Assembly: GCF_005885675.1 (NCBI RefSeq)
Contig: NZ_VANR01000001.1
Span: 496,001-560,000, forward strand
Source of the DNA: Polaribacter aestuariivivens
Lineage (GTDB): Bacteria > Bacteroidota > Bacteroidia > Flavobacteriales > Flavobacteriaceae
Direction of reading: 5' to 3'
Length of the DNA stretch: 64,000 bases
Shown: piece by piece, positions 8,188 to 43,271 of the stretch
How positions within the stretch are numbered: position 1 is the first letter of the stretch
Layout of the letters: every line of letters starts with the position of its first letter
Notes under the pieces: model-generated
Seen by the model: only the letters and a program-made list of their open reading frames with translations
Told to the model about the DNA's origin: nothing
Database searches by the model: none
Translations under genes and position numbers: made by a program

Positions 8188-8203
8188 ATTAGAATTACTT
8201 CAA

Positions 8204-8572
8204 CTATAAATTCTCTAATTCTGCTTGTAATTTCTTTGGCAAACCTTTCACAACCAATTTATAAGAATGATTTATAAGTTCTCTAACCAAATCATCAGAA
8301 ACATCTGAAGAATTTATAGTGACAGTGTTCCAATGTTTTTTGCTCATGTGAAATCCAGGTGCAATTCCTTCATATTCTCCACGCAATTCTTCAGCTTTAT
8401 CTGGATTGCATTTTAAATTTATTTTCTGTTCACCATTTTCCCATTTACTTAAACCCACCAAAGCAAACATTTTATCCATTACTTTAAAAACAAGAGTTAC
8501 ATCATCAAAAGGAAAATGTTCTGTAACTCCTTTTTTGGCAATACAAAAACCTCTTAATTGTTCTATGTGCAT
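8204..8572 (-). CDS. MmcQ/YjbR family protein
   Basis: A 122-residue single-domain protein of the MmcQ/YjbR (CyaY-like fold) family: N-terminal LRGFCIAKKGVTEHFPFDD, a central KINLKCNPDKAEELR strand-helix and the C-terminal HWNTVTINSSDVSDDLVRELI block are typical. Members bind DNA in some reports, but no role is established. It is a single gene between a convergent terminator and the divergent corA. Confidence 0.88.
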   Translation of the reverse strand: MHIEQLRGFCIAKKGVTEHFPFDDVTLVFKVMDKMFALVGLSKWENGEQKINLKCNPDKAEELRGEYEGIAPGFHMSKKHWNTVTINSSDVSDDLVRELINHSYKLVVKGLPKKLQAELENL

Positions 8573-10906: not shown

Positions 10907-12049
10907 TCAATTCACCATAAAAAGATCAGATGCAATACCATCACATAAAAATTTTCCTTTTTTGGTTGTGGAAATTTTTAAAGTTCCACTTGAAGTTGTT
11001 GTTACTTCTAACAGCGCTTGTTTTATGTATTTTTCAGATTGCTTTTTTAAATATTGCAGATAGTTTTCACCGAAATCATTTTTTATTTTATCAAAAGAAA
11101 TTCCCCAAATAGTTCGTAAACCCGTCATTATATATTCATTATAAACATCGGTTTTAGATAAAATTTCTCTTTCAATTGGTAATTTATTGTCTTGAATGGA
11201 TTTTATATATTTCGTATTATTTCTAACATTCCAACTGCGTTGTTTCCCATCGAAAGAATGTGCAGAAGGTCCAATTCCTAAATAAGATTTTCCTAACCAA
11301 TAAGCCGAATTATTTTTGCTAAAAAAATTTTCTTTTCCAAAATTTGATAATTCATAATGTATAAAATCAGCTTTTTTTAATTCTTCTAATAAAATATAAA
11401 ACTGTTCTTGTGCTTTTTCTTCATCAACATTGCTAATTTTTCCTTTTGCAATTAATGTTTCTAGGGCTGTTTTGGGCTCTACTGTTAATGCATAGCTAGA
11501 AATATGAGGAATCCCAAAACTCAAAGCAGTTTTTATGTTTTCTCTCCATTCTTCATTGGTACAATCTGGAATACCGTAAATTAAATCGACAGAAATGTTT
11601 GTAAAATATTGCGAAGCAATTTGTAAACAGTTTTTAGCTTCTTTTGAATTGTGAGCGCGATTCATCAATTTTAAATCTTTCTCAAAAAAAGATTGAACTC
11701 CAATACTTAATCTGTTTATTGGTGAATTGGAAAGCTCTATAATTTTTTCTTCAGATAAGTCATCTGGATTTGCTTCTAATGTAATTTCTGGGTTTTCTAC
11801 AACTACAAAATTATTGTAAACAGCATTTATTAAAAGCTGAATTTCTTCCGTATTTAAAACAGATGGAGTTCCTCCTCCAAAATAAATGGTTTCAACAGTT
11901 TTATTATCTAACTCATCTTTTCTGATTTCGATTTCTTTAACTAATGATGAAATCATTTCTTCTTTTTTCTTCAAAGAAGTAGAAAAATGAAAGTCGCAGT
12001 AAAAACAAGCTTGTTTGCAAAAAGGAATGTGAATATAGATGCCAGACAT
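10907..12049 (-). CDS. hemW: Radical SAM heme chaperone HemW
   Basis: A 380-residue radical SAM protein starting MSGIYIHIPFCKQACFYCDFHF; CxxxCxxC (CKQACFYC) supplies the 4Fe-4S ligands, followed by YFGGGTPS and RLSIGVQSF motifs and the C-terminal HemN-type domain. HemW delivers heme in bacteria and is often annotated as oxygen-independent coproporphyrinogen oxidase-like. The frame extends 11 codons further to a TTG at 12082, but that part is encoded by the repeat flank of the S23 cassette, so ATG at 12049 is the better start. HemW normally follows ruvC closely; here the S23 cassette intervenes. Confidence 0.93.
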   Translation of the reverse strand: MSGIYIHIPFCKQACFYCDFHFSTSLKKKEEMISSLVKEIEIRKDELDNKTVETIYFGGGTPSVLNTEEIQLLINAVYNNFVVVENPEITLEANPDDLSEEKIIELSNSPINRLSIGVQSFFEKDLKLMNRAHNSKEAKNCLQIASQYFTNISVDLIYGIPDCTNEEWRENIKTALSFGIPHISSYALTVEPKTALETLIAKGKISNVDEEKAQEQFYILLEELKKADFIHYELSNFGKENFFSKNNSAYWLGKSYLGIGPSAHSFDGKQRSWNVRNNTKYIKSIQDNKLPIEREILSKTDVYNEYIMTGLRTIWGISFDKIKNDFGENYLQYLKKQSEKYIKQALLEVTTTSSGTLKISTTKKGKFLCDGIASDLFMVN

Positions 12050-12050
12050 A

Positions 12051-12080
12051 AAATAGTTCTCAGTAGCAGTATCAGTTGGC
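12051..12080. repeat. Left inverted-repeat flank of the S23 cassette
   Basis: Read on the minus strand this holds three to four degenerate six-base units (AACTGA-TACTGC-TACTGA-GAACTA). The plus-strand flank on the other side of the four-helix-bundle gene reads AACTGC-(TACTGC)n-TACTGA-AAACTA, so the two ends are inverted copies differing mainly in unit number. Confidence 0.7.
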
Positions 12081-12084
12081 AAAC

Positions 12085-12450
12085 TTATTTAACACCAAAT
12101 TTACCAGGGTTATTTATCATATAATTAATTAACTTTCCAACTTCTGAGTTTTCAGAAGATAAATTTTCAAAAGTACCTTTATCAATGTATTTACACTCTA
12201 AAGCAAACATTAACCAAGTTAAAGTTTCTGAATTTTCAGCATCAGAATCAGTTAATTTACTTGAAAAATGTTTTGGATATTGTCTTTTTCTATAAGCTTC
12301 TGATATATTTGCAGATACACTTCTAGAAGATCTTCTTATTTGATCTGTTAGAGAATATCTTTCTTCTTTTGGAAAAGATTTAGAAATTTCAAAAATTTTC
12401 ATCGATAAATTAAACGATTTTTTAAATGCTAATAGATCTATAAAGCTCAT
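12085..12450 (-). CDS. S23-type four-helix-bundle protein
   Basis: A 121-residue all-helical protein of the S23 / four-helix-bundle family (originally described from intervening sequences of 23S rRNA genes; fold related to the Avd protein of diversity-generating retroelements). The conserved segment is YSLTDQIRRSSRSVSANISE at about 42-61, followed by YRKR. No catalytic residues are expected; the role is unknown. The gene stands alone inside a cassette bounded by inverted six-base repeats, between hemW and ruvC, which suggests it arrived by insertion. No transposase or reverse transcriptase is present nearby. Confidence 0.88.
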   Translation of the reverse strand: MSFIDLLAFKKSFNLSMKIFEISKSFPKEERYSLTDQIRRSSRSVSANISEAYRKRQYPKHFSSKLTDSDAENSETLTWLMFALECKYIDKGTFENLSSENSEVGKLINYMINNPGKFGVK

Positions 12451-12482
12451 AAGTTATGTTGTATTACAAATTGTTAACCCTA

Positions 12483-12564
12483 ACTGCTACTGCTACTGCT
12501 ACTGCTACTGCTACTGCTACTGCTACTGCTACTGCTACTGCTACTGCTACTGCTACTGCTACTG
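12483..12564. repeat. Hexanucleotide tandem array (ACTGCT)13.7
   Basis: Thirteen perfect ACTGCT units plus a final ACTG, with no interruptions, directly upstream of the four-helix-bundle gene and 12 bases from the ruvC stop. It is the expanded right flank of the S23 cassette and is inverted relative to the left flank. Perfect identity implies recent expansion, so the copy number probably varies between strains. Confidence 0.95.
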
Positions 12565-12576
12565 AAAACTAAAAAT

Positions 12577-13128
12577 TTATTTAATCTTTTTAGGATTCTG
12601 CTTTACAAAACTTGCCCAACCAGTATAATTCTTACCTCCAATAACTTTACCTGAGTTGTAAAAATGACAAACTGCAGCTGCTAAACCATCTGTTGCATCT
12701 AAATTTTTTGGTAACGTTTTTAAATTTAAAAGCGATTTTAACATCAAAGCAACTTGCTCTTTACTCGCGCTTCCATTTCCTGTAATTGCCATTTTAATTT
12801 TCTTTGGTAAATACTCAGTAATCGGAATTTCTCTAGACAAGCCTGCAGCCATTGCAACACCTTGTGCTCTACCTAACTTTAACATCGATTGTACATTTTT
12901 TCCGAAAAATGGTGCCTCAATAGCAATTTCATCAGGATTGTAGGTATCAATTAATTCAATTGTTCTTTCAAAAATTAATTTTAGTTTTAAATAATGGTCA
13001 CTATATTTTGTAAGAATTAATTCATTCATTTGAATAAATTCCATTTTTTTTCCTACCACTTTTATCAAACCAAAACCCATTATTGTAGTTCCTGGATCTA
13101 TTCCTAAAATAATTTTTTCTATAGCCAC
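12577..13128 (-). CDS. ruvC: Holliday junction endonuclease RuvC
   Basis: A 183-residue RNase H-fold nuclease. Acidic active-site residues sit in GIDPGT (about 9-14), the IEAPFF segment (E at about 69) and the C-terminal [12 protein letters not shown] block. It cleaves Holliday junctions during recombination together with RuvAB. The C-terminal tail after the domain ([19 protein letters not shown]) is typical of Bacteroidota. Its 3' end abuts the repeat flank of the S23 cassette, and the usual follower hemW lies beyond it. Confidence 0.95.
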
Positions 13129-42797: not shown

Positions 42798-42890
42798 TTT
42801 TATAATTTTAGTTGTGTTTCTACTATTACGCAACAAAATTAAACAATATTTCTATACAAGTTTATTTTTGAATAAAAAATTATGTTATAA

Positions 42891-43271
42891 TTATTGATTT
42901 CTTAATTTCTTTACAAATATCATAATCATCGAAAACCACCCCACTATAAAGAACAATCCTCCAACTGGAGTTACAAACCAAATTGTATTGGCTGAAATGG
43001 TAGATAATTGAATTGCATATATTGAACCTGAGAAAAATAAAATTCCTAAAAAAAACAAATAACTAATGAGATTTTTTTGATTTTCTGAAAAACCTTGATA
43101 TGTATTTACAAAAAGCAATACAATTACATGATACATTTGGTAACGAACTGCTGTCTCAAAACTTAATAATTGTTCAGAACTGAGTGTTTCTTTTAAAGCG
43201 TGTGCCCCAAAAGCACCTAAAATTATTGCCAAGAGACCTAAAAAACAAGTAATTATAATATTTTTAAACAT
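42891..43271 (-). CDS. DUF423 membrane protein
   Basis: A 126-residue protein with four membrane helices; LGAFGAHALKETLSSEQLLSFETAVRYQMYH (about 20-50) is the DUF423/YgdD signature and VTPVGGLFFIVGW the C-terminal one. Role unknown. Confidence 0.92.
   Translation of the reverse strand: MFKNIIITCFLGLLAIILGAFGAHALKETLSSEQLLSFETAVRYQMYHVIVLLFVNTYQGFSENQKNLISYLFFLGILFFSGSIYAIQLSTISANTIWFVTPVGGLFFIVGWFSMIMIFVKKLRNQ

Follow-up and report, generated by a model that had tools for sequence, protein, structure and literature searches.

The S23 family of four-helix-bundle proteins, the intervening sequences (IVSs) of bacterial ribosomal RNA (rRNA), the protein Avd of diversity-generating retroelements (DGRs), REP/REPIN pairs and short tandem repeats are all already known. 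Here we analyze an S23 gene that is located between ruvC and hemW and framed by inverted arrays of short repeats, in a stretch of 64,000 nucleotides (nt) of the Polaribacter aestuariivivens genome (contig NZ_VANR01000001.1, positions 496,001 to 560,000), hereafter the window. In REP/REPIN systems, a RAYT gene encoding a Y1 tyrosine transposase is found between inverted repeats, and gene-less inverted pairs and solo repeats occur in intergenic regions. The rRNA IVSs of Leptospira and Coxiella contain an S23 open reading frame (ORF) in sense orientation, have inverted-repeat ends and are cut out of the transcript by RNase III; they are sporadically present, their ORF decays, and in Coxiella GACAGAT heptamer repeats lie beside it (PMC4990558). 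Direct repeats of TAACTGA precede start codons in Beggiatoaceae, Cyanobacteria and Bacteroidetes, with neither a mechanism nor a link to S23 reported (MacGregor 2015, PMC4679880). The papers on the Coxiella IVS and on TAACTGA were recovered by a literature search with few subscription journals, in which no paper found described S23 cassettes at operon junctions.

The feature between ruvC and hemW probably represents a single copy of a mobile cassette in which an S23 gene lies between two cognate arms, inverted relative to each other and composed of short repeats. Gene and arms together look like a small mobile element that is widespread, has apparently not been described before and is related to the insertions in bacterial rRNA genes. 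Judging from comparison of sequences, the gene-plus-arms unit recurs at dozens of junctions across several phyla with a motif specific to each S23 lineage; the arms match their own mate, accompany the S23 lineage to unrelated sites and keep a fixed G-then-C polarity, and the S23 gene is under purifying selection. On the minus strand, the sequence and the ORF list give the order ruvC, 5' arm, S23, 3' arm, hemW:

12577-13128, minus strand: ruvC, the operon neighbor upstream (PF02075, E 2e-43; ORF)
12451-12576, minus strand: 5' arm and S23 leader (5' in the sense of transcription), TTTTTAGTTTTCAGTAGCAGTAGC..., of G-rich polarity (sequence; inverted match to the 3' arm)
12482-12566, no strand: (TACTGC)n hexamer array within the 5' arm (Tandem Repeats Finder score 164, 100% matches)
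12085-12450, minus strand: S23/four-helix-bundle gene, 121 amino acids, pI 9.2 (TIGR02436, 103 bits; PF05635, 107 bits)
12051-12084, minus strand: 3' arm, GTTTGCCAACTGATACTGCTACTGAGAACTATTTT, of C-rich polarity, abutting the hemW start codon (inverted-repeat match to the 5' arm)
10907-12050, minus strand: hemW, the neighbor downstream, on the strand of S23 (PF04055 and PF06969; ORF)

The arms are 91% complementary across 23 nt (12054-12076 and 12549-12571, inverted), and their local inverted score of 36 is higher than that of any of 7,884 background comparisons drawn from the rest of the window (maximum 28). Their duplex is predicted at -36.6 kcal/mol, and the complementary ends could form a stem around the ORF. 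The hexamer array (about 12483-12564), with 13.7 exact copies of TACTGC, is the strongest tandem array of the window. At the other end, the hemW start codon occupies 12050-12048 on the minus strand, and the protein start MSGIYIHIPFC is conserved in relatives. S23 is the sole gene between ruvC and hemW, with no RAYT transposase gene between the arms; the cassette encodes no nuclease and no transposase, and comparison with Rfam gave sub-threshold matches only, to unrelated families. An earlier, sequence-only reading of this locus had described inverted six-base-repeat ends with S23 alone inside, as is confirmed here, and had estimated that about 40 bases would be left on removal of the cassette. 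That figure was too high: ruvC and hemW are separated by about 526 nt, of which less than 15 nt remains once arms and gene are subtracted.

Like an rRNA IVS, the cassette combines a sense S23 ORF in what is presumably a longer transcript, ends able to pair, short tandem repeats by the ORF, sporadic presence and ORF decay. Unlike an IVS, it lies outside rRNA, between protein-coding operon genes, in a genome with 11 S23 genes; its motif is specific to the S23 lineage, and S23-less derivatives and solo arms exist. The resemblance to REP/REPIN likewise lies in a gene within inverted repeats and in the occurrence of S23-less inverted pairs and solo repeats, but the gene is S23 rather than a Y1 tyrosine transposase, the arms consist of 6-9 nt units in arrays, and the cassettes of Bacteroidota are sense-only at operon junctions.

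The pairing of the arms was examined in 171 S23 loci parsed from Bacteroidota (142 from the genus and 29 from other Bacteroidota) and in 65 loci outside the genus, obtained via other records and mostly cyanobacterial, with Chloroflexi, Vibrio, Beggiatoaceae and other Bacteroidota also represented. With a strong inverted match defined as a score of at least 30 between a locus's own flanks, such matches are present at 40% of the 171 loci, versus 2% for flanks swapped from one locus to another and 0.6% for shuffled flanks; outside the genus the corresponding values are 72% and, swapped, 7%. The flanks of other S23 copies thus match each other, as the sequence-only reading had anticipated, and only 2 of 60 other window genes have strong inverted flanks. 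As RNA duplexes, own arms reach -20.4 kcal/mol and swapped arms -10.7, with own arms the stronger at 46 of 48 sites. The motif itself varies by locus, being GTATTAAG at fadB-fadA, TTTTGGTTGTT at metH1-metH2, AGCTTTTAGC at hemL-hemE and ACGAACA at polysaccharide genes (gene names at these junctions were inferred from flanking protein sequences). A single end motif of the CAGTA/TACTG type, expected earlier, was therefore not what was found: each S23 lineage has its own, and TACTGC is that of the lineage at the ruvC site. At several polysaccharide-gene junctions (L010, L016, L019, L028, L088, L124) the arm units have a period of 7, CGAnnAW, with strongly variable inner positions that are seemingly patterned.

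The association between arms and S23 lineage can be followed across sites. In the Bacteroidota set, among S23 pairs from different sites, arm similarity is higher the closer the proteins are, reaching 22 for the nearest S23 at a different site versus 16.6 for random pairs. Outside the genus, at sites without a shared neighbor, more similar S23 proteins have more similar arms (Spearman 0.187; 0 of 1000 permutations), arm similarity being 20 at 20-35% S23 identity and 45 at 70% or more. S23 proteins of the DFKDLKIWQKGM type are paired with GGGAACAG or GGCAACAG arms in Fischerella, Scytonema, Okeania, Crocosphaera and Microcystis. A cyanobacterial S23 that is 63% identical to type B of the genus (one of two types described below) likewise occurs with TGATAAC arms, a pairing that is not an independent test because these loci were found via that heptamer. 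Direct support for movement, and for a recent move, comes from Microcystis, in which cassettes with 98%-identical S23 occupy two unrelated junctions, one AcrA-AcrB-like and the other before a NUDIX-like gene; the homology between the two ends at the arms, and the alignment breaks down beyond them. At the same junctions, sister genomes contain the full cassette, arms without S23, a solo 3' arm, or an S23-less pair of a different motif that is nested next to leftover TGATAAC units.

The cassettes are also constrained in placement. Same-strand genes flank S23 on both sides at 165 of the 171 loci, at median distances of 54 nt from the upstream stop and 45 nt to the next start, and S23 is sense between two protein-coding frames at 48 of 52 Bacteroidota sites, compared with 24 of 61 same-strand triples in the window (p 1e-15). 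At 42 of 48 sites, the arm 5' of S23 is rich in G and the one 3' of it in C, a polarity kept in 49 of the 65 loci outside the genus, and control genes have no such skew. The host operons at the 52 sites are without obvious common function. A rare S23 cassette in one genome (L193, G259) is apparently antisense to both neighbors.

Terminal inverted repeats are a feature that the cassettes share with insertion sequences and miniature inverted-repeat transposable elements (MITEs), and the arms could in principle be the ends recognized by a trans-acting transposase, with S23 a mere passenger. Arm pairs without S23, and the fact that homology between recent copies starts and stops at the arms, would fit such a transposon. 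The sense-only insertion at operon junctions in Bacteroidota would not, nor would a cassette without a transposase in which S23 is kept by selection; furthermore, no end sequence is common to the arms, which track the S23 lineage instead, and no target-site duplication was recognized at empty sites that are only a few nt wide. A MITE-like origin is accordingly rated as quite unlikely.

Comparison of junctions within the genus reveals several states at ruvC-hemW alone: S23 of type A with TACTGC-like arms, S23 of type B with TGATAAC arms, decayed cassettes, a solo 3' arm and clean empty sites. In the clean-empty relatives the ruvC stop overlaps the hemW start (TAATG or ATGA). At batA-batB and fadB-fadA, the gap is 0-5 nt in most genomes without a cassette there, which likewise represent clean empty sites, and some genomes have S23-less inverted arm pairs. 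Empty sites, to which the sequence-only reading had looked for a check of mobility, are therefore available at all three junctions. On the ruvC+hemW tree, 15 changes are required among type A, type B and empty, and a supported sister pair comprises one filled and one empty genome (G037 and G034, respectively). Across these comparisons, the sequences display full, arm-pair-only, solo-arm and clean-empty junctions, together with a near-identical Microcystis cassette at two unrelated junctions: the unit occupies operon junctions, moves rarely, decays and may be cleanly missing.

The S23 protein itself scores well over the curated cut-offs of its family (107.3 versus 33.8 bits for PF05635; 103.1 versus 24 bits for TIGR02436) and has relatives of solved structure (PDB 2rld, 2gsc). 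Such genes are present in 49 of 58 genomes of the genus and in 235 of 296 sampled Bacteroidota genomes, or about four in five. The dN/dS ratio is 0.17 for S23 orthologues at the ruvC-hemW site and 0.06-0.47 within single sites, indicative of purifying selection. A number of S23 copies, at several loci, have in-frame stops and are decaying beside conserved ones.

Kinship with Avd, through a four-helix-bundle superfamily common to both, was noted by the sequence-only reading: the protein reaches 43.6 bits with bAvd (cut-off 40), but only 34.7 bits with DivGenRetAVD, short of the cut-off of 80 for the DGR Avd equivalog. This kinship raises the idea of a retroelement satellite, the RNA of which would be copied by a reverse transcriptase in trans, much as Avd aids DGRs, and an RNA intermediate would suit both the sense orientation and the fixed polarity. 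No match to reverse transcriptase (PF00078) was found in the P. aestuariivivens genome (100% complete), which argues against a DGR-like route, nor was one found in the S23-rich relatives G017, G020, G028 and G055. Past movement with a reverse transcriptase that has since been lost is conceivable, and this explanation is considered the most improbable of those weighed here.

In the preferred interpretation of a mobile S23 cassette, the unit, which sits at a stop/start junction inside an operon in the sense direction, is presumably co-transcribed with it. Pairing of the arms in that transcript could enclose the S23 frame in a loop, in the manner of the IVSs of 23S rRNA, and host RNases may cut the cassette RNA out between the neighboring cistrons, limiting its cost. 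The basic S23 protein, which has related family members that form pentamers, would recognize its own arm motif, as RNA or as DNA, and would help the unit to spread or persist.

Several results weigh against this interpretation or parts of it. Mismatches between arms show no excess of G.U over A.C (127 versus 166), and sense arm duplexes are no more stable than antisense ones; RNA-specific selection on arm pairing is therefore unsupported and the RNA-stem step is weak. The cassette may thus act as DNA, in which case the sense orientation would reflect a need for read-through transcription. Orientation is looser outside the genus, with both neighbors on the S23 strand at 38 of 65 loci; the global correlation between S23 and arm similarity is nil in the Bacteroidota set (-0.009), near neighbors alone showing it; no target-site duplication, for which the sequence-only reading had proposed a search, was recognized against empty sites with a gap of only a few nt; and many arrays of cassette motifs occur without S23. 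Finally, the S23 tree requires 60 site changes for 52 sites, which is near the minimum, so that cassettes in the genus are mostly inherited in place and movement there is rare, and homologous recombination of alleles could partly account for the turnover of junctions. The mobile unit proposed by the sequence-only reading is supported, in that neither of its two refuting conditions held (clean empty sites exist, and other S23 copies have matching flanks) and the Microcystis copies speak for it directly; within the genus, the element is largely stationary.

Near one-origin-per-site inheritance is what a fixed operon gene would produce, that is, an ordinary, vertically inherited operon regulator, the arms of which are binding sites or a leader/attenuator and which does not move. 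Purifying selection and sense orientation agree with such a gene, as does the slight co-variation of arms within a site (own 15 versus same-site swap 14). Against it, one lineage with its motif is found at unrelated junctions, close relatives have clean empty sites and solo arms, the 52 host operons lack an obvious common function, and two different S23 types occupy ruvC-hemW, all of which makes a fixed gene an unlikely account. The lack of a G.U excess and the abundance of S23-less arrays would instead be compatible with neutral repeats, in which the arms arise by slippage and by switching of template from one side of a small palindrome to the other, with S23 uninvolved; the tandem copies are indeed variable in number. 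Slippage may well lengthen the arms, yet it leaves unexplained their pairing with S23: a given motif goes with a given S23 lineage to unrelated sites, the polarity is fixed, and such arms were not found at other window genes. An origin of this kind is highly unlikely.

The heptamer TAACTGA, described in Bacteroidetes and in Cyanobacteria, where short tandemly repeated repetitive (STRR) sequences are known, forms the 3' arm in type-B S23 cassettes, with the same polarity just before start codons. Most of the cyanobacterial arrays retrieved are without S23 nearby, so that remains of cassettes can account for no more than a part of them. A search from TAACTGA arrays gave only 3 S23 frames in 822 kb, each no more than 200 nt from an array, and few of the S23-less cyanobacterial arrays have an inverted partner (5 left and 1 right of 101). 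It is possible, though we hold this broader view only tentatively, that each S23 protein is a sequence-specific partner of the arms around its gene and that the two together define a class of minimal operon-junction mobile cassettes in several phyla, ancestral or sister to the rRNA IVSs. Decayed arms of these cassettes would then account for some of the short tandem repeats still unexplained in Bacteroidota and Cyanobacteria. A family hitherto without known function would thereby gain a testable role, as a protein with cognate repeats in operon junctions, and the different S23 lineages with their different motifs offer ready cognate pairs for tests of binding and mobility. If true, this would join the rRNA IVSs and their origin, the S23/Avd fold and the orphan short tandem repeats of Cyanobacteria and Bacteroidota.

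In Okeania, Microcystis and other cyanobacteria (L217-L327), many TAACTGA arrays have neither S23 nor an inverted partner. In an Arcicella locus (L252, 2256-2290 and upstream), TCAGTTA and TAACTGA arms surround a terminator-like hairpin in place of S23. Two other genes of the window, at 8203-8572 and 42890-43271, have high inverted scores and were rejected as armed genes, the matches looking like AT-rich chance. In two genomes (loci L063 and L208), ruvC and hemW are instead separated by 1.1 kb of inserted DNA that contains an unrelated open frame, and this junction therefore takes other insertions too. In one S23-rich relative (L213, G028), ruvC is followed by a long array of repeats of about 100 nt (CAGATTACTTC...), which constitute a separate repeat family.
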